A stretch of DNA of 64,000 bases, taken from NCBI GenBank assembly GCA_949297805.1, contig CASFTG010000002.1:141871-205870 (forward strand). Direction: 5' to 3'. Below are positions 48,427-59,160 of this stretch, one piece after another. This stretch comes from an uncultured bacterium (GTDB lineage Bacteria; Bacillota_I; Bacilli_A; RFN20; CAG-826). Made by a program: the position numbers and the translations under genes. Below the pieces are notes generated by a model, which ran no database searches, was not told the origin of the DNA, and was given only the letters and a program-made list of their open reading frames with translations. Position 1 is the first letter of the stretch; each line of letters opens with the position of its first letter.

Positions 48427-48477
48427 TCGCGCTTAATACTAAGGAACCTATCTTCCTTGGTTAAATGATTTACATCC

Positions 48478-48507
48478 AAAGGACTCCCGACTCGGGGGTC
48501 CTTTTTT
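48478..48507 (+). terminator. Terminator after rpsR
   Basis: An 11-bp stem (AAGGACTCCCG / CGGGGGTCCTT, one G-U pair) with a short loop, ending in six T residues. It separates the rpsF operon from the ESCRT-like operon. Confidence 0.9.
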
Positions 48508-48568
48508 GCGTATATTTCCTTGTTTTTCCAAATATTCCGCGGTTCAAGACACAAGAGACTTGATGAAG

Positions 48569-48613
48569 TTGACGTCAAAATCTTTTGCCCCCTTAATCAT
48601 GTGCGCTTAAAAT
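48569..48613 (+). promoter_or_regulatory. Predicted promoter and palindrome of the ESCRT-like operon
   Basis: -35 TTGCCC (48585-48590), 17-bp spacer, -10 TAAAAT (48608-48613), starting transcription ~20 nt before the ATG at 48642. A perfect 10-bp palindrome TTGACGTCAA (48569-48578) ends 6 bp upstream of the -35 and may bind an activator or repressor. No other promoter is obvious until after the lipoprotein gene, so eight kilobases may depend on this one. Confidence 0.5.
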
Positions 48614-48641
48614 GAGTCAGTTATCAAAGGACTGGAAAACT

Positions 48642-49728
48642 ATGGCCAAGAAAGACGTCTACACCCTCAACAACGGCGATCTCTCGATCAACGATCTCAA
48701 AAAACGCGATTTGAAGAATCTGACGGAAATCAAGTTTGCCGGGGACAACGACGCTTTGTTCTGGCGCTTCTCGGCCGACATCCTGAACCCCAAGGCGGAA
48801 GTGATCGTCGACGACACCCATGAGGTTGTCTTCGTCAAGGATGGCATGCTGCTTGGCGTGTTCGAGGGGGGGGCGTTATCCAGTCTTCGACTACAAGAAG
48901 GGGCTCTTCGGAGCTAAGAAGGTCGGGGCTTGCACCGTTGACCTTCTCTTCATCTCCAAGACCGCGCGTTTAAACGTTAAGTGGGGCACCACCTCGCCTT
49001 TTGCTTTCCGCGACGAACTGACGGATATTCTGGTTCACGTCCGGGCTTTCGGCGAATTCGAGGTCCGGGTCCAGAACTCGAAGAAGTTCTATACCGAGTT
49101 AGTCGGGGCCGATAAGAATTTCACTATCGAGGATTTGCAACGCCGCCTTATGCAGCGGCTCCTTTCCTTCATTGAGCCGAGCGTTTATCGGAAGCTGAAA
49201 GAAAAACACATTCCTTTCGAGGACATCGCCATCTATAAGCTGGACATCGCCGACGCCCTCAAAAAGCAATTGGGCGAGATCTTTGCTTCCGACTATGGAT
49301 TGGAAGTCTGCTCCTTTACTTTTGGCCAGATTTCTCCGAGCGAAGAGGAAATCGAGATGCTGGAGGCCAAGCGGAAGGAGATAAAAGGCAACGAGCAATA
49401 TAAGAAAGACGCGAAGGAAATCGCCGCCGAGCTCGAAAGGCTTGATGACAAGAATTTCGAACGGAAAAAGATCCTCCATTCGTTGAAGGCCGAAGATAGC
49501 GAAAAATACTATGACGTCTTGAAGACGCTGGGTTGGCCCGATGGCGAAAAGCCGGAGCCGAGGAAGACGATGGTTTGCCCGGTTTGCCATGCCAAATACG
49601 GGGCCGATGTCAAGTTCTGCCCCAATGACGGGGCGAAGCTATTCGAGGACGGGATTTGTCCGTCTTGCCACAAAAAGGTTCCGGAAGGGGCGGCTTTCTG
49701 CCCCTATTGCGGACATAAGCTTGGCTAA
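48642..49728 (+). pseudogene. SPFH-domain protein with C-terminal zinc ribbons (YdjI-like), frameshifted at a G8 tract
   Basis: Two frames together encode a ~361-residue protein. Frame 1 (from ATG 48642, AAAGGA upstream) gives the N-terminus through EVVFVKDGMLLGVFEGG; after eight G residues at 48866-48873 the sense continues in another frame as RYPVFDYKKGLFGAKKVGA. Seven G residues would restore one frame. The family is the stomatin/prohibitin-like SPFH group with C-terminal zinc ribbons (B. subtilis YdjI type): LVHVRAFGEFEVRVQNSKKF is the SPFH core, and CPVC, CPND, CPSC and CPYC pairs end the protein. YdjI-type proteins recruit PspA to membranes, fitting the ESCRT-like neighbours. Alternatives: assembly error, true decay, phase variation or programmed shifting. 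Confidence 0.8.
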
Positions 49729-49751
49729 TTGGCTAATAGGAGGTCATGACC

Positions 49752-50117
49752 ATGTTTTTCCGAAACAAGAATTCCCATTATAAAGAAGAGATTAAATCGC
49801 GGAACCGAATTGGGGAGATAACCGCCTCAATCAACGTGCTTCTTGATCAAGTCAAAGGAAAGGATGACAAAACCTACGCTGAGCTGCAGAAGTTCGGCGA
49901 GGAAATCAATGGTCTTTTCCCACGGGCCGATGCCGAGAAAGAGGAAAAGAAAATCAAGAATGCCCTTGAGGACCTTTCGATTGAAATCAATCGGTCGATC
50001 AAGAAGGAGGATTTCGCCTCCGATAAATTGGCCTCAGCCCTCGAAGAGGTCAGCTTAACCATATCCAAGAGGAAATACATGGCCACTTCTTACTCGACCA
50101 AAGAGGAGAAGTTCTGA
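49752..50117 (+). CDS. Small helical protein in ESCRT-like operon
   Basis: 121-residue protein with no family I can name. It is almost entirely helical and charged (YKEEIKSRNRIGEITASINV; EKEEKKIKNALEDLSIEINR; FASDKLASALEEVSLTISKR), without signal peptide or membrane segment. AGGAGG has 8-nt spacing to this ATG; an ATG at 49746 is too close. Its stop overlaps the next start (TGATG). Size and helical pattern would suit an accessory or truncated ESCRT-III-like subunit or an adaptor, but this is inference from context. Confidence 0.7.
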   Translation: MFFRNKNSHYKEEIKSRNRIGEITASINVLLDQVKGKDDKTYAELQKFGEEINGLFPRADAEKEEKKIKNALEDLSIEINRSIKKEDFASDKLASALEEVSLTISKRKYMATSYSTKEEKF

Positions 50118-50701
50118 TGTGGCCGTTCCGAAAAAACCGTTATAAGAAGCTCAAGCGCGAGGAAGTGGTGGAAGCCATCATCGAGCTCGATAATCGCGAA
50201 GAGGCTTTGGAAAAGGAAATCGCCGAGTCAGCCGCTAAGGAAAAGGCGTTGCTCGCCAAAGGGCGGCAAGAGGCCAACCGCGATATCCGGCTGCTCTACG
50301 CAAAGAAAATCGAAGCCGGCAAGAAAGAACGGCAGGATCTGCTGCAACGTTCCCTTTACCTCTTGTATAACCTTCAGCTATTGAAGAAACTCAAAAGCGC
50401 CATCGATGACAAGGAATTCATCCAAGCGACCTCGGACGTTTCCCTCATCGACCTTTTAGCCGATCAGAAGAACTTAGCCAAGTTCCTCAATGGGGCTTTG
50501 CAGACCAAGGTCAAAGCCGAGGACATCATGACCAGCGCCGATGACGTCTTCAAGGAAGTGAGTGAAAGCTATGCCCCGAACGAGAAAATCTACGGGGTCA
50601 ACGAATCGGACGACCAATTGCTGGCCATGTTCGAAGAAGCCGAGGATGAACCAAGCCTCAATAAAGAGGAAGAAGGAGGGAACACCGATGTCGATCTTTA
50701 A
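50117..50701 (+). CDS. Coiled-coil ESCRT-III-like protein, first copy
   Basis: 194-residue cytosolic protein. A basic start (MWPFRKNRYKKLKREEVVEA) leads into a long charged helical hairpin (residues ~15-110, EALEKEIAESAAKEKALLAK then YLLYNLQLLKKLKSAIDDKE), then a helix (IMTSADDVFKEVSESYA) and a strongly acidic tail with DDQLLAMFEEAEDE. A basic amphipathic N-terminus, long alpha1-alpha2 hairpin and acidic C-terminus with an MIT-interacting-type helix is the ESCRT-III (Snf7/CHMP) plan. It overlaps the next gene by 14 bp. Sequence identity to known members is low, so the call rests on architecture and the adjacent Vps4-like gene; PspA-type or unrelated coiled coil are alternatives. Confidence 0.6.
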   Translation: MWPFRKNRYKKLKREEVVEAIIELDNREEALEKEIAESAAKEKALLAKGRQEANRDIRLLYAKKIEAGKKERQDLLQRSLYLLYNLQLLKKLKSAIDDKEFIQATSDVSLIDLLADQKNLAKFLNGALQTKVKAEDIMTSADDVFKEVSESYAPNEKIYGVNESDDQLLAMFEEAEDEPSLNKEEEGGNTDVDL

Positions 50702-51269
50702 GTCGAAGGAAGAGAAAGAGTTTGAGAAGAAACTTGTCCTGAAGCGGACCATCGCCGAGATGGGCAAGCAGCTCAAGAAACTCGAAGAACAGAAGGACTT
50801 TTATCTAGAGAAGGCCAAAGAAGCCAAACTCCATGGCCTTGGCAATGAGCTTTCCCTCGCCGTTTCGGCTTTGAAAAGCGCCATGTCCCAGGAAAAGCGC
50901 ATCCGGGAGATGAAGATCAATTTCGAGATCATGGTCTCCTTAAAGGACATGCTCAAGACCACTTCGGAGTTCCTTAATGGCATGGCGTCCTTATCGAAGG
51001 ACATGGTCAAACTGACTGACGATAAGCAATTCGCCGAGGTGTCGAAGCAATTCAGCTTAGCCATGCATAGCGCCGAGAAACAGCAGGAACGGATGGAGAT
51101 CTTCTTGGAGAATTCCAAGGATTCCTTCTCTTCCGTCTCCGACAAAGGCGACGTCACGACCAAAGACATCATGTCCTTGGTCAACGAGGGCTTAGGGCAA
51201 GACGGCCCGACTGACGAGGTGGATACCACCCTCGCGGAAATCGAAAGCAAACTGCAGAAAAATGGATGA
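50688..51269 (+). CDS. ESCRT-III/Snf7-like protein, second copy
   Basis: 193-residue protein opening MSIFKSKEEKEFEKKLVLKR. Residues ~10-75 form a helical hairpin with KEAKLHGLGNELSLAVSALK and MSQEKRIREMKINFEIMVSL. A CHMP1/2-like segment follows (LKTTSEFLNGMASLSKDMVK; FAEVSKQFSLAMHSAEKQQE; RMEIFLENSKDSF), then an acidic linker and a terminal helix DTTLAEIESKLQK. That helix resembles the MIM1 motif ((D/E)xxLxxRLxxL[KR]) by which eukaryotic ESCRT-III proteins bind the Vps4 MIT domain. AAGGAGG precedes the ATG. It overlaps the ATPase gene by 8 bp. Of the three small proteins this is the most convincing ESCRT-III relative; structure prediction would settle it. Confidence 0.7.
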   Translation: MSIFKSKEEKEFEKKLVLKRTIAEMGKQLKKLEEQKDFYLEKAKEAKLHGLGNELSLAVSALKSAMSQEKRIREMKINFEIMVSLKDMLKTTSEFLNGMASLSKDMVKLTDDKQFAEVSKQFSLAMHSAEKQQERMEIFLENSKDSFSSVSDKGDVTTKDIMSLVNEGLGQDGPTDEVDTTLAEIESKLQKNG

Positions 51270-52644
51270 CGCTTTCTTGATGGAGAAATACGACCACTAT
51301 TTTCGCCTGGCCAAACAAAGCGAGGCGAAAGGTAATGTCGAATCGGCCAAAAGGAATTATTACCTAGCGGCCAAAGAACTCCTTTTAGCGAGCAAAAACG
51401 CGACGCCTGAACTCAAAAAAGCCCGCATAAGTAAAGCCAATCGATTAAATCGCTACGCTGATGAGCTCAGCATCCCCCATCGGCAGAGACCGGCTTCTCC
51501 GGCTTCGGAAGACGGAGACTCCAAACCTTTTCAATGCATGGCGGCGCCTGACGTTTCCTTTGACGATATCGTCGGGCTCGAAGAAGCCAAACGCGAGATC
51601 AAGGTCGCGATGATTTACCCGCTTCTATACCCTGAGAAGTATCAACTCTATCGCAAATCCAGCGGCGGGGGCATTTTGCTTTATGGCCCGCCGGGGACTG
51701 GGAAGACGATGCTGGCTAAAGCCGTCGCCCATGAAGTCCAGGCCAAATTCTATTTAGTCCGCTCCTCCGATATCGTCTCCAAATGGGTTGGGGAATCGGA
51801 GAAGAACATCGCCGCCCTTTTCTCTTCGATTGGGAAAGAGGAGCGCAGCATCATCTTCATTGATGAGATGGATACCCTTTTCGCCTCTAGGGGGCAGGAT
51901 ATCCATAACGATCGCCGGGTCAACGAGTTCCTACAGCAAATCGATGGCTTCACCGGCAAGAATCCTAACCTGTTGCTGTTGGGTTCGACAAATAAGCCGT
52001 GGAGCATCGACAATGCCGCCCTCCGGAGCGGGCGCTTTTCCACGAAAATCTATATCCGCTTGCCCAATTTCATCGAACGCCGGGCGATGTTCGAGCGGAA
52101 TCTATCCGGCCTGCCGATTGGCGACGACGTCGATCTTGACCGGCTCGCCAGCCTTACCAATAACTTCTCCGGGGCCGATATCGCCTTGGTCTGCGACAAG
52201 GCTAAGGAACGCCCCCTCCTCGCTTCCTTCTCCTCCGACGTCGTCATCAATGTCATGATGGACGACTTCCTTAAGGAAATCCATGAGGTGCGGCAGCACA
52301 TTGACCTATCCGATATCCGCCGTTACGAAAAATACGCCGGGGTTCAAAGCGTGGAGCTTGAGGGCGATTCGTTGGATGAAATCGTCGTCCAAAACAAGAT
52401 ATTTGAGTATGAAGAGGGCCGCCAATACCAATTGGAATTCAAACTCAGCGGCATCCACAACCAAGTCTATTTGTCGGTTGCCGGTCGAAGGGTCAACATG
52501 ACCAAGAACGCCAACCATTACGTAAGCGACCCCTTCTTATTGGAAAAGCCCGGACGTTATCAAGTCGATGTCTTTGATAAGACCTGGATCGGGTCATTCC
52601 TGATCGAGGCCAAGCCAATCAATAAAACGGAGGTTAATCCATGA
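51262..52644 (+). CDS. Vps4/CdvC-like MIT-AAA ATPase
   Basis: 460-residue protein. Residues ~3-70 form a three-helix MIT-like domain (YFRLAKQSEAKGNVESAKRN; KKARISKANRLNRYADEL). A linker leads to a meiotic-clade AAA core: VSFDDIVGLEEAKREIK, Walker A GPPGTGKT (142-149), pore loop SKWVGESEKNI (Trp175), Walker B IIFIDEMD, sensor 1 in GSTNKPWSIDNAALRSGRF and KIYIRLPNFIERRAMF, all as in Vps4. FLKEIHEVRQHIDLSDIRRY then EKYAG matches the Vps4 C-terminal helix. About 95 extra residues (365-460) form a beta-rich domain not found in Vps4. Vps4 disassembles ESCRT-III filaments; the upstream neighbours would be its substrates (inference). It shares ATGA with the TIR gene. Confidence 0.88.
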   Translation: MDDAFLMEKYDHYFRLAKQSEAKGNVESAKRNYYLAAKELLLASKNATPELKKARISKANRLNRYADELSIPHRQRPASPASEDGDSKPFQCMAAPDVSFDDIVGLEEAKREIKVAMIYPLLYPEKYQLYRKSSGGGILLYGPPGTGKTMLAKAVAHEVQAKFYLVRSSDIVSKWVGESEKNIAALFSSIGKEERSIIFIDEMDTLFASRGQDIHNDRRVNEFLQQIDGFTGKNPNLLLLGSTNKPWSIDNAALRSGRFSTKIYIRLPNFIERRAMFERNLSGLPIGDDVDLDRLASLTNNFSGADIALVCDKAKERPLLASFSSDVVINVMMDDFLKEIHEVRQHIDLSDIRRYEKYAGVQSVELEGDSLDEIVVQNKIFEYEEGRQYQLEFKLSGIHNQVYLSVAGRRVNMTKNANHYVSDPFLLEKPGRYQVDVFDKTWIGSFLIEAKPINKTEVNP

Positions 52645-55600
52645 GCGACAATATTACTCGCTGCAGCCATTGCGGCGCCGCCCTTGATTTAACGAAGGCA
52701 AGCAATGGTTTTGTCCGTTGCGACTATTGCCAATCGGTCAATCCGGTCCTTGACTGCGGCGAAGAGGGCAGCAACCTCCTCAACGTCATTTACAAACGGC
52801 GGAACGAACTGAAGTTCGACGAATGCGAGGATACGATCGATTCTTGGCTTCCCAAGCTGAAAGCCGACCCCAAAGACAATGCCAGCTTGTTGGCTGAGCT
52901 TTATTTCCAAAAGTTCCTCTGTGGCTATGGCATCATCTACGTCGACGAAGACGGCAATTCGACCGAAAAGCCAACCCTCAACCGCCTTTCCGAACGGAGT
53001 TGCTTCGATGACTCCAATTTCCAGGAGGCGATGAAATACGCGAACGCCAACCAAAAGGACAGTTACGAGCAAGCCGTCCAGGAAATCGACGACATCCGCA
53101 AATTAGCCTGCGAGAAGCTTTCGACCGAGGAACCTTATGATGTCTTCCTTTCTTTGAAGGTCAAAACCTTGGATGGCAAAGGCTATACCGTCGATAACCA
53201 ACGGGCTAAAGAGATTTACGATCAACTGACTGCCGCCGGTTACCGGGTTTTCTATTCTGAGGTGACGCTGAAGCAAAAGGTCGGGGCGGAATATGAGCCG
53301 ATCATCTACCATGCTTTATCGACCGCCTCGGTGTTCTTATTGCTTTGCACCGACGATGTCGACAACATCCTTCAACCCTGGGTTCAAAACGAATGGTCGC
53401 GTTATCTTAAGCGGGTGCAGGAAAGCAAAGACGACTTGGCCCTTATCCCGGTCATCACCGATAAGGTTGATATCTCGGCCCTTCCGGCCAAACTCAAGAA
53501 ATTCCAGGCTTTGAAATACGATCCCCAGTTCTGGCCGTCGCTAGAGAAGATTCTGCGCACCACCATCAAGCGGAACGTCGGTTTCACCGCTAAGAAAAAG
53601 GAAGTCAAAATCGATATTAAGCCGATTCAGGTCGTGGAGAAGAAAATCGAGAAGACGGTTTTCGGCGGCAAGAAAGAGAAGATCGTCATCCCGGCTAACG
53701 ACGAGACCCGGCTTAAGCGCATCCTAGGTGAGATGTCCTCGATGGTTTCGGCCAAAAATCAGCGCAAGAAGAAAAAGGCGGCCCGTTATCGAGAACAATC
53801 GCTAAACGACCTCCAAACCTTATTAAAGGCCAATGACCGTTATTACCTCGCTTACTGGATCCTGTATCTCTTGCTTAATGGCATCGCCAATGAGGGCAAA
53901 CTATCCGAAACGTCTTTTAACTTGACCGCCAATGATTTGTCTGCCCTTGATAAGTGCTTTGCCTTGGCGCCGCAGGAATTCGTCGAGGAGAAGTTGAGCT
54001 TGCTCCGCAAGCAGTTCGACAATTCAATCACCGATGATACTTTCGCCTCGGCTCTGCCTTTATATGAGTTCCTCCTTAAATACGTCAATGAGAAGGGCGA
54101 GATTGAACTGGCCTATAACTTCGAGAACGCCGTGGCTCAGCATATTTCGGAGAGTCGCGACAAGAAGCCGAAGAACCTTGAATCCTCGGTTGATAAGGTC
54201 AGCGAGGCCGTCTATGGCGTTTTGACCAAAGGCGGGACCGAAAGGGTTGTTTCCTATTACGACCACCTTGCGACCGCTTACCGGAATGTCGGGAACTTCG
54301 CGGCTTCGGGGCAATACGTGAAGAAGGCCTTGGAATTATTCGAGGCCGATCCGACAGCTTTGTGGAACCAACTCCTCAACAAATACAAAATCTCCGGCAA
54401 CGAGAATCTGGCAAAATTGCTGAAAAACCCCCGCGAGGTGTATTTGACCATTGAGAAGATGCTCAAAGGCGGTTACCGGATTGAGAACCTGCACCAGAAC
54501 CGGCAGAACTACGTCACCCGGATCATCAACCTCTGCATCAATTATCTTAAGCTCAACGCCAAGAGCTCCTATCTTCTTTTCAAAGAAGTGGTTCAAGTCA
54601 TCCCCAATGCCAAGGAATACATGGATGACGAGGAATTCAACGAGTACTTTTACCAAATCGTCAGCGATTACGCCACCCGGAACCTTTGGGTTGGGCGGTA
54701 TAAGGAAGCCCGCGAATTCGCGGAGCTTTTGATTGCCAATAACCTCCAGACCCCCGAAACGTATTGGATCTTGCTCAAAGCGGGCTTGAAGAAGCCGACC
54801 AATTTCGATCTTTTGATGATCGATGAGAATCACGATTTCCAAATGGACAAGTCGAAGACCGATTACGATAACATCATTGCCGCCAGCCAAGCCTATGACG
54901 AGGCTAATTTCGGCAAGGGAAAGGGCAAATCGAAAGCCGTTTCCTGGTCGGCGGTCAACGACGATTTCCATGCGTTGTGGGATCGAATCGCCACCGAACG
55001 CCGAAGCATCCGTTCCCAGTTCGTCAAAACGCTTAAGGAAGCCAAGAAATATTTCCTCACTGTCTTCGACGGTGGGGAAAGCGAATCGGTCCAATATCTT
55101 TCCTCTTTGGTCAACAAAAGCACCGACGACTTGCTCACGGCCTTAAGCAGTATCCGGAGCGAGTACTATGGCAAGGCCAATTCCTTTGGCGATTCGCTGA
55201 GCGAGTCGAAACGGAGCAGCCGGAAAAAGAGCGTTGACTCGAAATACAAGAAGAAGCAATTTGTCTCGCTGCGGAATTCGAAATTCAGTCCCAATATCGC
55301 CTTCTTCACTTTATTCGCGCTCGCGGCCCCTTTGATGTTTCTACTATTAAGTTATTTCAACGTTAATGTTGGGATGGCTAACGCCTATATCAGTTTGTTT
55401 GTCGTCATTCCGCTAGGGTTGTTTTGGACTATCGCCTATAAAAAGGCGTATGGAGACAAACTGCCGCTTGTCCGGAAGCTATTCCCGTTGCTTGCCACGG
55501 CCGTTTTCGCCGCTTTGCCGTTCCTTCTTTTCCAAGAAAGCCTCATGGAGAGGACAAAGTTTGTCTTGGTCGAGTATCTGCCGATGATTGCCAGTATTCT

Positions 55601-55775
55601 CTTGGGGCTCGTTTACCTGTTTGAGAACCACGGGGTGCTGGCCTTCCGCAGCCGGCTTAATTCGATCCTCGCCATAATCGGCATCGCCGGTTCAATCGCT
55701 TTGACCTATGTTTTCCGGCTTGATCCCGATTCCTATTACTCTTTGCTCTACAATTTCCATTTCCCAGGATTATAA
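52641..55775 (+). CDS. Zinc-ribbon / TIR-domain / polytopic membrane protein
   Basis: 1044-residue protein. An N-terminal zinc ribbon has Cys8/Cys11 and Cys27/Cys30. A TIR domain spans ~165-310: YDVFLSLKVKTLDGKGYTVD, IYDQLTAAGYRVFYSEVTLK, ASVFLLLCTDD, and QPWVQNEWSRYL with Glu251 in the W-V-x-x-E context of the SARM1 catalytic glutamate. Residues ~330-870 are helical, in part TPR-like (HLATAYRNVGNFAASGQYVK, KALELFEADPTALWNQLL). Five hydrophobic helices end the protein (FFTLFALAAPLMFLLLSYF; ISLFVVIPLGLFWTIAY; LFPLLATAVFAALPFLLF; two more). Bacterial TIR domains commonly hydrolyse NAD+ in immunity; a protein-interaction role is the alternative. GGAGG precedes the ATG. Confidence 0.85.
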   Translation: MSDNITRCSHCGAALDLTKASNGFVRCDYCQSVNPVLDCGEEGSNLLNVIYKRRNELKFDECEDTIDSWLPKLKADPKDNASLLAELYFQKFLCGYGIIYVDEDGNSTEKPTLNRLSERSCFDDSNFQEAMKYANANQKDSYEQAVQEIDDIRKLACEKLSTEEPYDVFLSLKVKTLDGKGYTVDNQRAKEIYDQLTAAGYRVFYSEVTLKQKVGAEYEPIIYHALSTASVFLLLCTDDVDNILQPWVQNEWSRYLKRVQESKDDLALIPVITDKVDISALPAKLKKFQALKYDPQFWPSLEKILRTTIKRNVGFTAKKKEVKIDIKPIQVVEKKIEKTVFGGKKEKIVIPANDETRLKRILGEMSSMVSAKNQRKKKKAARYREQSLNDLQTLLKANDRYYLAYWILYLLLNGIANEGKLSETSFNLTANDLSALDKCFALAPQEFVEEKLSLLRKQFDNSITDDTFASALPLYEFLLKYVNEKGEIELAYNFENAVAQHISESRDKKPKNLESSVDKVSEAVYGVLTKGGTERVVSYYDHLATAYRNVGNFAASGQYVKKALELFEADPTALWNQLLNKYKISGNENLAKLLKNPREVYLTIEKMLKGGYRIENLHQNRQNYVTRIINLCINYLKLNAKSSYLLFKEVVQVIPNAKEYMDDEEFNEYFYQIVSDYATRNLWVGRYKEAREFAELLIANNLQTPETYWILLKAGLKKPTNFDLLMIDENHDFQMDKSKTDYDNIIAASQAYDEANFGKGKGKSKAVSWSAVNDDFHALWDRIATERRSIRSQFVKTLKEAKKYFLTVFDGGESESVQYLSSLVNKSTDDLLTALSSIRSEYYGKANSFGDSLSESKRSSRKKSVDSKYKKKQFVSLRNSKFSPNIAFFTLFALAAPLMFLLLSYFNVNVGMANAYISLFVVIPLGLFWTIAYKKAYGDKLPLVRKLFPLLATAVFAALPFLLFQESLMERTKFVLVEYLPMIASILLGLVYLFENHGVLAFRSRLNSILAIIGIAGSIALTYVFRLDPDSYYSLLYNFHFPGL

Positions 55776-55787
55776 GGAGGACCGACC

Positions 55788-57581
55788 ATGAAAAAATCAC
55801 TCTATCTTTGCTTTTCCCTCCTATCGTTAGGCATCTTCGCTTGCTCCCAAACCTACGAATGCGATGGCGTCGACATTACGGATATCGTTAGGTATGCCAG
55901 CGACTCCCGTTATTTCTTCGGATTCGACGGCTGGGCTAACGTCTATCCCAATCTTCAAACCACCGGCGTGACCCTTGAGGGCTATCGATTCCCTGAATAC
56001 AACGGCGTTAACTACGCTCGGCTTTGCTACAAGGTCGACGGATCGACGACCGACATCTACCGGATCAAAGCCTCCAACGGTTCATATGTCCTCAATAATT
56101 CCAATGTGTTTGAGAAAATCATGATGGTGCCGACGACCACCAACCCAATCCATATTTACGATGATATGCCTTTGGCGGCGATCGATACCGGCAATAGTTA
56201 TTCCCTTTTTACCTCGACCGGAACCTATCTGGGCGTGGAGATAGACAATTTGGACGATGTCTCGTGCAGCTTTTCCGATGATCTCGTCTATGCCCATGTA
56301 ATCAATCGGAAAAACCCCGGCTTCGAGAACGACATCTTCTTAAGCAACTCCAGCGACTACGAAAACGGCGGTGGTTTTAACAACCTATACTTATTGAAGA
56401 AGACCTCTTCGAGCAGCAGCACCCATTGGCCCGAAGCCGTCGTGACCGACGATTATCTTCTCTATCGTTTCTCTTCCGAAATCGGAAACAGCGGCTTCGT
56501 CTATTACCGAGACGGGAAGATCAGCTACTATTCCGTTGCCGGCGCCACCCCCGACCAATATGAGGTTCTGAGCGAAGATTGCTTCTCGAAGGATATGTTG
56601 GGCTATGAGAACCTTCATTATCTCGTTTTGCCCGCAAAAGCGGCCCTTTCGGTCATCTTAACTGGCTACGATGCGGCCGCGAACGTTCAGCGGACCGAGA
56701 TCTTTGTCCTAAAAGACAATGGCAAAACCTCGACGGCCTCCTACATGCCGATCTATTTTGACGAGGATGCCGTGGTCGATTATCACTATGGCAAGGTTCC
56801 AAGCTTCTTCTATTCGACTCAGGCCATCGCCTATTCTTCCTTCCCTGGGTACAAATTGAATGGCCAGGGCGAGGTCGACAAGACAAAAGAAGTGACCTTC
56901 ACGGTTTCCGAGGACGGGAAGATCGGCTATCTTGAAGATTCCCAAGACTCGGATTCCGAACTTTCAATCGATGACATTGATAACTTATACGCCATCGAGC
57001 CCGATCAGCACGACGCGATGCTGGGAGTCGATGAGGACAGCGGGAAGGCCATGCTATTTTATTTCGAACGGCAGAAGACCCATTTGCTCAAATCCCCGAC
57101 CATGATTTATCAAAGCGCCGTCATCGATGATTTCGATGAAATCGTGATCAATAGCAGCTCCAATTTTGCCTTTAAGACCAAGGATGGCAAGTATCGTTAT
57201 TGCTCTGGTGACGCTTCCGATTTATTGGAGAATAAATATCTGGGTGTGACCCGTTTCAGCACCAATGGCTCCAACCGATTGAGAAATATCGCCCGGGCGG
57301 TTGAAAACGCTGTCGGGGACTTCTATGTCCAGGGATATGACAATTACACCTTCCGCGGCGAATTCATCGATGCCTTCAATATCTGCTCCTTGATGATTGA
57401 TAACGACAACAAGGTCTATACCTATATGACCTTAGCCAATAAGAAGAAGCCCCTTCAGCTTCCAACCGACCATGGAGCGGTCCGGACGTTGGACTTTATT
57501 ACCCGGTTGAACCTTGGCTGGTTCCAATTCAAGGTGACCTATCTTGATGGCACCAGCGATTATTTATCCGTTCATCCGTAA
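55788..57581 (+). CDS. Large predicted lipoprotein, unknown function
   Basis: 597-residue protein with a lipoprotein signal peptide (MKKSLYLCFSLLSLGIFACS; Cys19, with Phe at -2, slightly atypical). The mature part is rich in beta strands, aromatic residues and Asp/Ser turns with loosely repeating units (DDYLLYRFSSEIGNSGFVYY; DGKISYYSVAG; NLYAIEPDQHDAML), suggestive of a beta-propeller, though no family is recognised. AAGGAGG precedes the ATG, 12 bp after the TIR gene. As the only secreted member of the operon it could sense the envelope or cell exterior (inference). No clear terminator follows. Confidence 0.75.
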   Translation: MKKSLYLCFSLLSLGIFACSQTYECDGVDITDIVRYASDSRYFFGFDGWANVYPNLQTTGVTLEGYRFPEYNGVNYARLCYKVDGSTTDIYRIKASNGSYVLNNSNVFEKIMMVPTTTNPIHIYDDMPLAAIDTGNSYSLFTSTGTYLGVEIDNLDDVSCSFSDDLVYAHVINRKNPGFENDIFLSNSSDYENGGGFNNLYLLKKTSSSSSTHWPEAVVTDDYLLYRFSSEIGNSGFVYYRDGKISYYSVAGATPDQYEVLSEDCFSKDMLGYENLHYLVLPAKAALSVILTGYDAAANVQRTEIFVLKDNGKTSTASYMPIYFDEDAVVDYHYGKVPSFFYSTQAIAYSSFPGYKLNGQGEVDKTKEVTFTVSEDGKIGYLEDSQDSDSELSIDDIDNLYAIEPDQHDAMLGVDEDSGKAMLFYFERQKTHLLKSPTMIYQSAVIDDFDEIVINSSSNFAFKTKDGKYRYCSGDASDLLENKYLGVTRFSTNGSNRLRNIARAVENAVGDFYVQGYDNYTFRGEFIDAFNICSLMIDNDNKVYTYMTLANKKKPLQLPTDHGAVRTLDFITRLNLGWFQFKVTYLDGTSDYLSVHP

Positions 57582-57687
57582 CCGTTTTCGATAGGCAATT
57601 CGTTCGAGCGAGCGACAAACCAGCGTTGTTCGGCTGTTTTCGGCTATGATTCTTTGATCTTTCACGAGAAATACTTATCGATTTAAC

Positions 57688-57722
57688 TGTCACAAAATCA
57701 AAATTTTTTAGAGTTTGTGACA
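57688..57722. promoter_or_regulatory. Widely spaced inverted repeat before the ATPase pseudogene
   Basis: Perfect 9-bp arms TGTCACAAA (57688-57696) and TTTGTGACA (57714-57722) separated by 17 bp of AT-rich DNA, followed by -10-like TATTAT (57733-57738). It could be an operator or a long-loop hairpin. Confidence 0.35.
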
Positions 57723-57759
57723 CATAAAGCCGGTATTATGGTGCCAAAGGGTTCCAATT

Positions 57760-58905
57760 ATGACGTTGATTAAGCGTGAACGATATCTAGAAAAGATCCG
57801 AAGATTCTATGATTCGAATCTGATAAAGGTCTTAACCGGCGTTCGCCGTTGTGGCAAAAGCGTCCTCCTTTCCCAAATCCAAGCCGAACTCTTCGATTGG
57901 GGAGTTCCGGCCGACCATGTCATTTACCTGAACCTTGAGGGCGCGGCTTATGCCAAGATCTGACGTTTCGATCAACTTAACGATTTTTTGCTAAGTAAAA
58001 TGACCGAAGAGGATAAGTACTATGTTTTCCTCGATGAAATCCAACATATTATCCAGTTTGAAAAGGTCTTGGCTTCCCTTAAGGTGACTCAGAATATCTC
58101 CCTCTTCGTCACCGGCAGCAATTCCAACCTTCTTTCGGGCTATTTAGCGACGTTGCTGGTTGGAAGGTGCAAAGAGTTCCGGATCTTCCCCTTCAGCTAT
58201 AGCGAATTCCTTGCCTACTACTCGGCGAACAACCTTTCCTTACCTGAAAAACCCTTTCAGGATTACCTCCGGTTCGGTGGCATGCCCCAAAGATTCGATT
58301 ACGACAACGAAGAGGACATAAAGGATTATCTCCATTCTATCTTTTATGGCATCGTCGATAAGGACATATGCGGAAGCCGTTCGAAAATCGACCGGGAATC
58401 GTTATTGACGGTTTCCAAATACGTTATTAGTAACACCTCTAAGGAGTTTTCGGCCCAAAAGGTAGCCGATTTCTATAATGCCGCGAATCCCGACAAAATA
58501 TATTCAAAGACGGTCTATCGATATTTGGAGAAACTAGAACAGGCGCGTCTGATTACCCGTATTCATCGTTATGATGTCGCCGGTAAACGGACTCTTTGCC
58601 ATATCGAGAGGCAATTCGCCGTCGATAATGGTTTTATCTTAGCCTGCGCTGATTCCAATCAAGTAAGCGCAGCCCTTGCTTTGGAGAACCTGATATTCAA
58701 CGAATTGCTCTATCGCGGCTATGAGGTGAAAATCGGGAAAACCTATAAAGGCGAGATCGATTTCGTTGCCATGAAAGGCGGCAAGAAGTGCTTTATCCAG
58801 GTTGCCTATTACCTTTTGAACGACGAGGTCATCCAACGGGAAATTGGAGCCTTTGATTCGGTTCGTGACTCGTCTCCCAAGTTCGTCTTAAGCCTCGATG
58901 ACTAG
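57760..58905 (+). pseudogene. ATP-binding protein of the AAA_14/DUF4143 type, interrupted by an in-frame stop
   Basis: The reading frame encodes a ~380-residue ATPase of the kind with an N-terminal P-loop domain and C-terminal DUF4143 domain. Walker A is LTGVRRCGKSVLLSQIQ, Walker B YYVFLDEIQHI, then LFVTGSNSNLLSG, PFSYSEFLAYYS and the late nuclease-like EVKIGKTYKGEIDFVAMKGG. A single TGA at 57961-57963 interrupts the otherwise open frame after YLNLEGAAYAKI; the same frame continues as RFDQLNDFLLSKMTEE. Since TGA is a normal stop here, this is a nonsense mutation (or rare readthrough, or sequence error). These ATPases are widespread in Bacteroidota and Firmicutes with unclear function. Confidence 0.85.
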
Positions 58906-59098
58906 ATATGTCTAAAGACGGCATAACCCATTTAAACATCGAGAAATGGCTGACGGGCAAAGTCGATCTGATGCTCTCTTAACTTTCATAAACTCGCTCT
59001 TATTTTGAATTTGTAACACTTAAGGCATTTTGCTGCGGCCCCATCGGATGGCTGATGCCGCGGATGAAATTCAGCTTTCAACCTTTAAGCTCGGCTTT

Positions 59099-59160
59099 TG
59101 GTCGAAGGAAAACCAACATTCCACGTTTCGTGGAATGTTTTCCCATTTAACTTTTCGACC
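59099..59160. repeat. Nested inverted repeat / strong hairpin
   Basis: A perfect 11-bp stem AACATTCCACG / CGTGGAATGTT (59115-59139) with a TTT loop lies within an outer pair GGTCGAA / TTCGACC. The 3' side runs into TTTTCCC. It is in the 275-bp gap before the XRE gene, ~40 bp from its start, and may be a terminator, a regulator binding site or a leader structure. The rest of that gap shows no gene. Confidence 0.6.

Follow-up and report, generated by a model that had tools for sequence, protein, structure and literature searches.

ESCRT-III and Vps4 proteins serve archaea and eukaryotic cells, including human ones, in reshaping and repairing membranes. In Bacillus subtilis, the recruitment of PspA, an ESCRT-III homologue, to the membrane requires the SPFH protein YdjI (PMC8581546), and the ATPase serving PspA and Vipp1 was left open by Liu et al. 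(2021; PMC8281802). A clear Vps4 homologue was stated to be lacking in bacteria in a 2023 review (PMC7615534), and Makarova et al. (2024) stated the same lack for many ESCRT components. Archaeal ESCRT systems are described as acting in division and vesicle formation, and a kinase and a phosphatase are described as accompanying many archaeal ESCRT loci in the layout of the main clade (PMC10936438). The present analysis concerns a seven-gene operon on the + strand (48612–57581) of a 64-kb window, which is the whole stretch of 64,000 nucleotides analysed from contig CASFTG010000002.1 of an uncultured bacterium. The operon encodes a YdjI-like SPFH/zinc-ribbon protein, three small helical proteins (p2, p3 and p4), a Vps4-like ATPase, a zinc-ribbon/TIR protein and a large predicted lipoprotein. 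Related loci (L) and genomes (G) are given by number where they have to be told apart.

The nearest prior report is that of Ravi et al. (2024; PMC11237479), according to which bacteria acquired Vps4-like ATPases by transfers in which a TPR/6TM gene took the place of snf7, and the PspA/Snf7 partner is a two-AAA protein accompanied by ABC, permease, PBPB and OmpA genes. Vps4-kind AAA ATPases in bacteria and ESCRT-III superfamily proteins near AAA ATPases are shared features, and that report weakens any claim that nothing alike was known; the initial annotation, made from the DNA alone, had not known the combination as described. In contrast, SPFH, TIR, BrxL and an MIT-like single-AAA ATPase with a Snf7-type partner do not appear in the passage in which those associations are described (PMC11237479); the CesT/Tir named there is a chaperone family and not a TIR domain. 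A literature search, with subscription papers mostly outside it, revealed no description of such an operon. The PspA-YdjG-YdjH-YdjI system of B. subtilis, as outlined in PMC8581546 and PMC11237479, resembles the operon in that a member of the ESCRT-III superfamily is paired with an SPFH/zinc-ribbon protein of the YdjI type, but the window operon has a Snf7-type protein and a Vps4-like ATPase. At E up to 1, the complete Pfam lists of the three small window proteins (p2, p3 and p4) contained no PspA/IM30 family. The archaeal Meth_adaptin ESCRT likewise contains a Vps4 and an SPFH protein with a coiled coil and a zinc ribbon in the description given by PMC10936438; it differs in that the Pfam matches of the operon included no adaptin-appendage, GOLD or ProX, the archaeal side being compared by that description only.

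The operon was real as the initial annotation had seen it, with seven consecutive genes mostly overlapping or a few bases apart, apart from the SPFH gene, which is not one frame from 48642. Overlaps of 1, 14, 8 and 4 bases were present at the p2/p3, p3/p4, p4/ATPase and ATPase/TIR gene junctions, respectively, and gaps of 17 and 12 bases separated SPFH from p2 and the TIR gene from the lipoprotein gene. When genome contigs were scanned with the ATPase, 306 relatives were revealed, the best 80 of which (L023–L102) underlie all counts within these locus numbers. The match extended beyond the AAA core, or was cut by a contig end, in 55 loci (L023–L077); the other 25 (L078–L102) were AAA proteins, archaeal or otherwise, that lacked the remaining operon genes. 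Of the 55 loci, searches with the window's own proteins found SPFH and p3 in 50 each and p4 in 52. SPFH, p3, p4 and ATPase profiles, built from the same 55 loci (the search with window proteins being the independent one), placed SPFH-p3-p4 in this order upstream of the ATPase and on the same strand in all 47 loci with at least 3.5 kb of upstream sequence, which answers positively the suggestion that the genes co-occur elsewhere; their association exceeds chance. TIR genes lay between p4 and the ATPase in some loci. The relatives belonged to uncultured Bacilli, Clostridia, Christensenellaceae, Candidatus Coproplasma and Caccovivens and once to Gastranaerophilales, and the isolate names of several point to animal guts. 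In divergent relatives from the window's order (L123, L127 and L181), p4 and the ATPase were kept, and SPFH could also be found in L123 and L127.

The relationship of p4 to archaeal ESCRT-III emerged from a search of 72,556 plasmid records which had been meant as a mobility test. The p4 of L042 had a single match, a gene of Thermococcus peptonophilus (E 6e-7; 24.8% identity over 76%), whose product WP_062390961.1 on plasmid NZ_CP014751.1 matched Snf7 at E 0.00042, below the cut-off. This gene follows those of a Ser/Thr kinase, an ATPase with Vps4_C (7.7e-9, over the cut-off) and a PP2C phosphatase. The p4 profile matched WP_062390961.1 along positions 3–188 of 195 at E 9.3e-13 (a search space of one million being assumed), and by BLASTP all 41 members of the p4 alignment matched it, compared to 0/41 reversed controls. 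The alignment comprised the window and 40 of the 52 locus matches, 12 near-duplicate or badly trimmed rows being left out; the family had 681 homologues at E up to 0.001. Window p4 itself showed 29% identity to the archaeal protein over 154 columns (E 2e-8, single comparison). Snf7 was matched by four of the 41 members at E up to 1, and L027 p4 exceeded the Pfam cut-off with 34.0 versus 27.3 bits. Sequence comparison shows that the p4 family shares ancestry, along almost its entire length, with the ESCRT-III protein encoded in an archaeal ESCRT locus.

The AlphaFold2 model of p4 (mean pLDDT 71.5) contained helices at residues 7–48, 52–109, 112–146, 158–169 and 176–192, which correspond to the ESCRT-III plan of a long hairpin, further helices and a final C-terminal helix. 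Foldseek matched it to a CHMP2A-CHMP3 chain at a probability of 0.99, and BAR proteins matched too. The amphipathic C-terminal helix was conserved and aligned with the tail of the archaeal protein. That p4 is a chance coiled coil unrelated to ESCRT-III, an objection to which the initial annotation had itself laid p4 open, was rejected on the conserved gene order and the Thermococcus ESCRT-III homology. The two kinds of locus resemble each other in that ESCRT-III adjoins Vps4, and both the ATPase and p4 align with the respective Thermococcus plasmid proteins over nearly their length. However, the archaeal locus holds a kinase and a phosphatase, and none of its seven proteins that were tested matched SPFH, whereas SPFH, p3, zinc-ribbon/TIR and BrxL or protease partners belong to the bacterial loci.

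The proposed Vps4 likeness of the ATPase was borne out. Its best NCBIfam model was archaeal CdvC (E 1.7e-63, residues 6–358), ahead of CDC48, and Vps4_C was matched by 31 of the 35 alignment members (the window and 34 of the 55 loci) at E up to 0.1, with a best value of 2.3e-6. A tree of 59 AAA domains joined the bacterial ATPases and archaeal Vps4 in one group, separate from Cdc48, FtsH and other families (UFBoot 91). When the Thermococcus sequence was added and two near-identical sequences were left out (58 domains), the joint Vps4 clade received SH-aLRT 67.5/UFBoot 82 and the bacterial group alone 97.9/94; both trees were made without eukaryotic Vps4, katanin and spastin. The grouping of the ATPase with archaeal Vps4 is thus moderately supported. 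Proteins of L006 and L008 also fall in the bacterial group but are outside this system, which was not seen in their neighbourhoods (L179, L180).

For the N-terminal domain of the ATPase, claimed to be an MIT domain, MIT was the most frequent family among the 31 aligned members (the window and 30 of the 55 loci), with matches in seven (best 1.8e-6) compared to four for the next family; the window's own domain matched at E 0.0016, below the Pfam cut-off. Comparison with five archaeal MIT domains gave forward E values of 0.00015 to 0.028 for four and 0.35 for the fifth, against a best reversed value of 0.09. A search of Protein Data Bank (PDB) sequences led nowhere; it listed 2mpk, a chain of chitin synthase 1 that we take to be an MIT domain, at E 0.13. 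An MIT identity is predicted from sequence for the N-terminal domain of the ATPase, although every match remained under the cut-off. The C-terminal extension of the ATPase was present in loci with long ATPases and absent from those with short ones. As a separate observation, ATPase ORFs (open reading frames) of about 690 to 800 aa with extra sequence on a Vps4-like core were seen at L026 2364–4550, L123 7391–9463 and L125 2293–4692, and the very divergent L181 (5523–9627) has in a row a p4-like gene, a 544-aa protein weakly resembling the ATPase profile, the ATPase and a trypsin-like gene.

Two small proteins had been proposed to be ESCRT-III-like; the proposal held for p4 by homology, and p3 is a candidate by its predicted fold but not by sequence. 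The p3 family (429 homologues at E up to 0.001) has conserved stretches, MWPF at the N-terminus and IYG and LLxMFE at the C-terminus. Among the 50 best PDB rows for its model, 38 belonged to the ESCRT-III superfamily, and these filled all of the first 14 ranks. Across the 42 alignment rows (the window, 33 of the 50 loci and eight database homologues), Snf7 was absent from the best 25 of 30 Pfam families, and p3 had no match to the Thermococcus ESCRT-III protein WP_062390961.1. Searches of the plasmid collection retrieved no match with L042 p3 and one insignificant match with L032 p3. From its modelled fold only, p3 is predicted to be ESCRT-III-like. In the Thermococcus plasmid locus (L182 5017–6218), two proteins of 198 and 201 aa show by eye an N-terminal plan like that of p3; the 42 p3 rows matched them weakly (12 matches to one and two to the other, best E 0.10), and in the reversed-p3 control one row matched another protein of that locus at E 5.9.

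Of the remaining products, those of the SPFH gene (Band_7_1 with zinc ribbons) and the TIR gene (TIR_2, 39.9 bits versus a cut-off of 28) passed Pfam cut-offs in the window, as did AAA, in agreement with the original assignments. The SPFH gene is spread over the ORFs 48612–48917 and 48820–49728, which lie in two different frames, with the switch in a run of eight G (48864–48873, near 48866). In the close relative L023, whose ATPase is 90% identical, SPFH is whole in a single 385-aa ORF, and SPFH homologues up to 92% identical, 361 aa long, could be found in the protein database. The break may be an assembly error, a real mutation or a switchable tract; the first two could not be told apart because the window's own copy was not among the homologues found in that database. 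The likely relatives of p2, found at the same place in other loci, commonly have a hydrophobic N-terminal segment. The large TIR protein is predicted to span the membrane, and it carries the expected glutamate 251, which we take to be the active-site residue of TIR NADases. A TIR pattern including this glutamate fitted 16 of 22 large proteins; as the pattern itself contains the residue, the count tells how many fit and is no independent measure of conservation. The six outside it were from L029, L036, L044 and L028 and two from L123. Lipoprotein homologues are present in L023 and L024. The coordinates of all features are given in Table 1.

Table 1. Features of the operon and its site in the window, with the basis of each assignment.
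Feature	Coordinates	Strand	Basis or remark
SPFH (Band_7_1) and double zinc-ribbon protein, YdjI-like	48642..49728	+	Frame broken in G-run; intact in relatives
p2, small helical protein, 123 aa	49746..50117	+	ORF list; relatives at same place
p3, ESCRT-III-like (predicted) helical protein, 194 aa	50117..50701	+	Homologues; fold prediction
p4, ESCRT-III (Snf7-type) by homology, 193 aa from ATG at 50688	50688..51269	+	Homology; model
C-terminal helix of p4 (residues 176-192), resembling MIM1; candidate ligand of the MIT-like domain	51213..51263	+	Model; alignment
Vps4/CdvC-like ATPase, 460 aa	51262..52644	+	Pfam; NCBIfam; trees
MIT-like N-terminal domain of ATPase, about residues 1-69	51262..51468	+	Profile matches
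ATPase AAA core, lid and Vps4_C-like end, residues 94-360	51541..52341	+	Pfam; NCBIfam
ATPase C-terminal extension, about residues 370-460	52369..52641	+	Alignment of loci
Zinc-ribbon/TIR/helical, TPR-like protein with C-terminal hydrophobic segments, 1044 aa	52641..55775	+	Pfam; segments predicted
TIR domain, residues 166-291, glutamate 251 in WVQNEW	53136..53513	+	Pfam; pattern
Large predicted lipoprotein, 597 aa	55788..57581	+	Lipobox-like N-terminus by eye
Stretch without counterpart in same-genus genome G122	48429..59118		Genome comparison

The relatives could be classified into three types by the partners of the conserved core. In type A, BrxL is encoded on the ATPase strand, which was found in 11 of the 55 loci (L024, L025, L027, L028, L031, L034, L063, L067, L072, L073 and L074); a zinc-ribbon/TIR protein was labelled in seven of them, and TIR_2 was present in an eighth, L028. 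The BrxL of L024 passed the NCBIfam cut-off. At the genome level BrxL occurred in nine of 17 genomes, always with a match inside the locus, and one genome held further copies; a search of the relative genome G214 found none. In the eight well-covered type B loci, a short ATPase is preceded by a zinc-ribbon/TIR protein, or by two of them, and in five it is followed by a trypsin-like gene. Type C (32 loci) is marked by a large zinc-ribbon protein, about 1250 aa long, in which three hydrophobic segments are frequent and which has a GLUG match in L042. Two ABC exporter genes after the large zinc-ribbon gene were also seen in most type C loci (L035–L077). The window corresponds to type A without BrxL, plus the lipoprotein. 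The likeness to BREX lies in the BrxL of the 11 relative loci; the difference is that none of the BREX families was matched by the window's seven proteins in Pfam (for the ATPase, among the best 25 of 42 families), and the candidate assignment of the window operon as a BREX system was rejected, neither BrxL nor another BREX family being among its Pfam matches. No BREX gene besides BrxL was named at E up to 1e-10 in the flanks of eight BrxL loci, and a BrxL beside a Vps4/TIR operon without BREX partners in these eight raises the possibility of a BrxL role outside BREX.

Around the operon, an ATPase gene, presumably of the DUF4143 kind, directly follows at 57760–58905 in two pieces split by a stop. 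In L126, an HTH (helix-turn-helix) gene directly follows the lipoprotein gene. Neither RNA families nor tRNAs were found in the window. Promoter-like sites showed no excess (5 versus 8.5 in shuffles), and terminator-like sites numbered 25 versus 12.5 in shuffles, scattered on both strands and mostly within genes. Defence models were searched with PADLOC at E up to 1e-10. Among the 35 window genes scanned (of 37 listed ORFs), mad3 matched five and 14 other models one gene each; among 56 of the 57 listed flanking ORFs of the eight BrxL-type loci, mad3 and MzaA matched two each and ten others one each. One window gene outside the operon matched the candidate PDC-S01 (1.5e-91), possibly as a housekeeping paralogue, and a QatD match was also present among the window genes.

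We regard it as just about likely that the operon is an envelope-surveillance machine built on the ESCRT-III-family p4 and the Vps4-like ATPase. The SPFH protein would mark a membrane site, by analogy with the role of YdjI for PspA in B. subtilis, at which p3 and p4 would form polymers. By prediction, the ATPase binds the C-terminal helix of p4 and pulls p4 subunits out. An outside signal may be reported by the lipoprotein, or by the outer/GLUG part of the large protein, as a form of damage sensing; the TIR protein, with its predicted membrane segments, would relay the alarm. Consumption of NAD+ is a likely output where the TIR glutamate is kept, and BrxL, the trypsin-like protease and the ABC pair would each serve as the output of particular subtypes that share a single remodelling core. 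Such a surveillance and remodelling core, with immunity as an option, is preferred because the TIR glutamate and the partners vary while SPFH-p3-p4-ATPase stays.

Several results weigh against this interpretation. A search of the whole plasmid collection with window p4 gave no match at E up to 1, so that its tie to the archaeal protein depends on the matches of its relatives and on the pairwise comparison. Window p4 had no Snf7 match in Pfam and was absent from the genome-wide Snf7 search, and the Snf7 cut-off was passed by p4 in only one of the 17 related genomes. Profile-profile comparison of p4 and p3 with the divergent TACK-type archaeal ESCRT-III proteins was negative, and profile searches of PDB sequences with p4 and p3 returned no CHMP. 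Foldseek matches of both models did not reach E 0.001, and the 50 best rows for p4 comprised five ESCRT-III and about half BAR-type chains. The C-termini of the candidate substrates had been called MIM-like; the conserved amphipathic helix of p4 stands, but it deviates from a perfect MIM1 (MIT-interacting motif 1), as the usual arginine of what we take to be the consensus is missing. The score of the ATPase against CdvC was 214.8 bits, with a cut-off of 650, and support for the joint Vps4 clade was only moderate and fell on adding the Thermococcus sequence. The MIT match of the N-domain was below the Pfam cut-off in every member, and its profile-profile match to archaeal MIT was weak (E 0.011, probability 4). 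In type C, the N-terminal part of the L044 protein aligned with the window TIR protein with the glutamate replaced, and the L042 protein had no significant alignment to it, its loss of the glutamate being judged by eye; thus, an NADase output is not general. Damage sensing itself is proposed from precedent only.

An anti-phage or abortive-infection system, in which ESCRT-III and SPFH sense phage membrane injury and TIR, BrxL or a protease kills or disables the cell, is considered unlikely. TIR genes, BrxL and trypsin-like genes are known from defence systems, and all occur as partners here, the trypsin-like genes in nine of the 55 loci. The presence of the system is also sporadic, with p4 in 10 of 196 genomes of the window's order and the system in five of 147 genomes (one weak) of the family of G223, the host of L042; genomes G136, G092 and G018 appear to hold L023, L024 and L025, and genome and locus counts therefore overlap. 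In the same-genus genome G122 the site is empty, 373 bases lying between the end of a gene we presume to be rpsR and an HTH gene, compared to 48429–59118 in the window, and the operon is therefore an accessory insertion there. However, no copy could be found in 50,697 phage records or among the viral contigs of the IMG/VR scan, so the link to phages proposed earlier was not corroborated, nor was the proposed enrichment in defence islands, no clear island being visible in the scanned window or the flanks of the eight BrxL-type loci. In type C, moreover, some neighbouring genes were common to 23 to 26 of the 32 loci (others to 1 to 8), which speaks for vertical descent, and these loci were therefore largely inherited with their surroundings in that lineage.

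The same chromosomal neighbours fit constitutive envelope maintenance, vesicle formation or a division aid with no alarm output and the TIR-like part as a scaffold, as do the missing glutamate of the commonest subtype (L044 aligned, L042 by eye) and the archaeal roles in division and vesicle formation described in PMC10936438. We nevertheless find this improbable, as 16 of the 22 large proteins fit the TIR pattern with its glutamate and the BrxL or protease partners suggest an output; the system is also absent from most sampled relatives and is therefore not essential. Membrane protein quality control, with an AAA unfoldase, an SPFH platform and a protease, and with p3 and p4 as adaptors and not filament formers, appears far less probable still. 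SPFH proteins commonly partner AAA proteases, the trypsin-like genes could supply the protease, the structural matches of p4 include many coiled-coil scaffolds, and the Vps4-clade placement is only moderately supported; against this, the p4 family is homologous to an archaeal ESCRT-III protein whose gene adjoins that of Vps4, and CdvC is the best family of the ATPase.

Returning to the envelope-surveillance machine, a further step is put forward tentatively and with some doubt, namely that an ESCRT-III/Vps4 machine shared with euryarchaea has spread among bacteria and become a device of membrane immunity. ESCRT-III filaments, seeded by SPFH and recycled by Vps4, would in that case be wired to exchangeable outputs, a TIR NADase, BrxL or a trypsin-like protease. 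If true, such a device would parallel in bacteria what eukaryotic ESCRT does in membrane repair and immunity. The finding matters because bacteria were thought to be without a Vps4 partner. The locus links ESCRT-III remodelling to SPFH scaffolds and TIR signalling, and the operon provides a compact set of proteins for reconstitution. It also opens to study in bacteria the question whether ATP-driven ESCRT-III remodelling predates the separation of the domains or was transferred between them.

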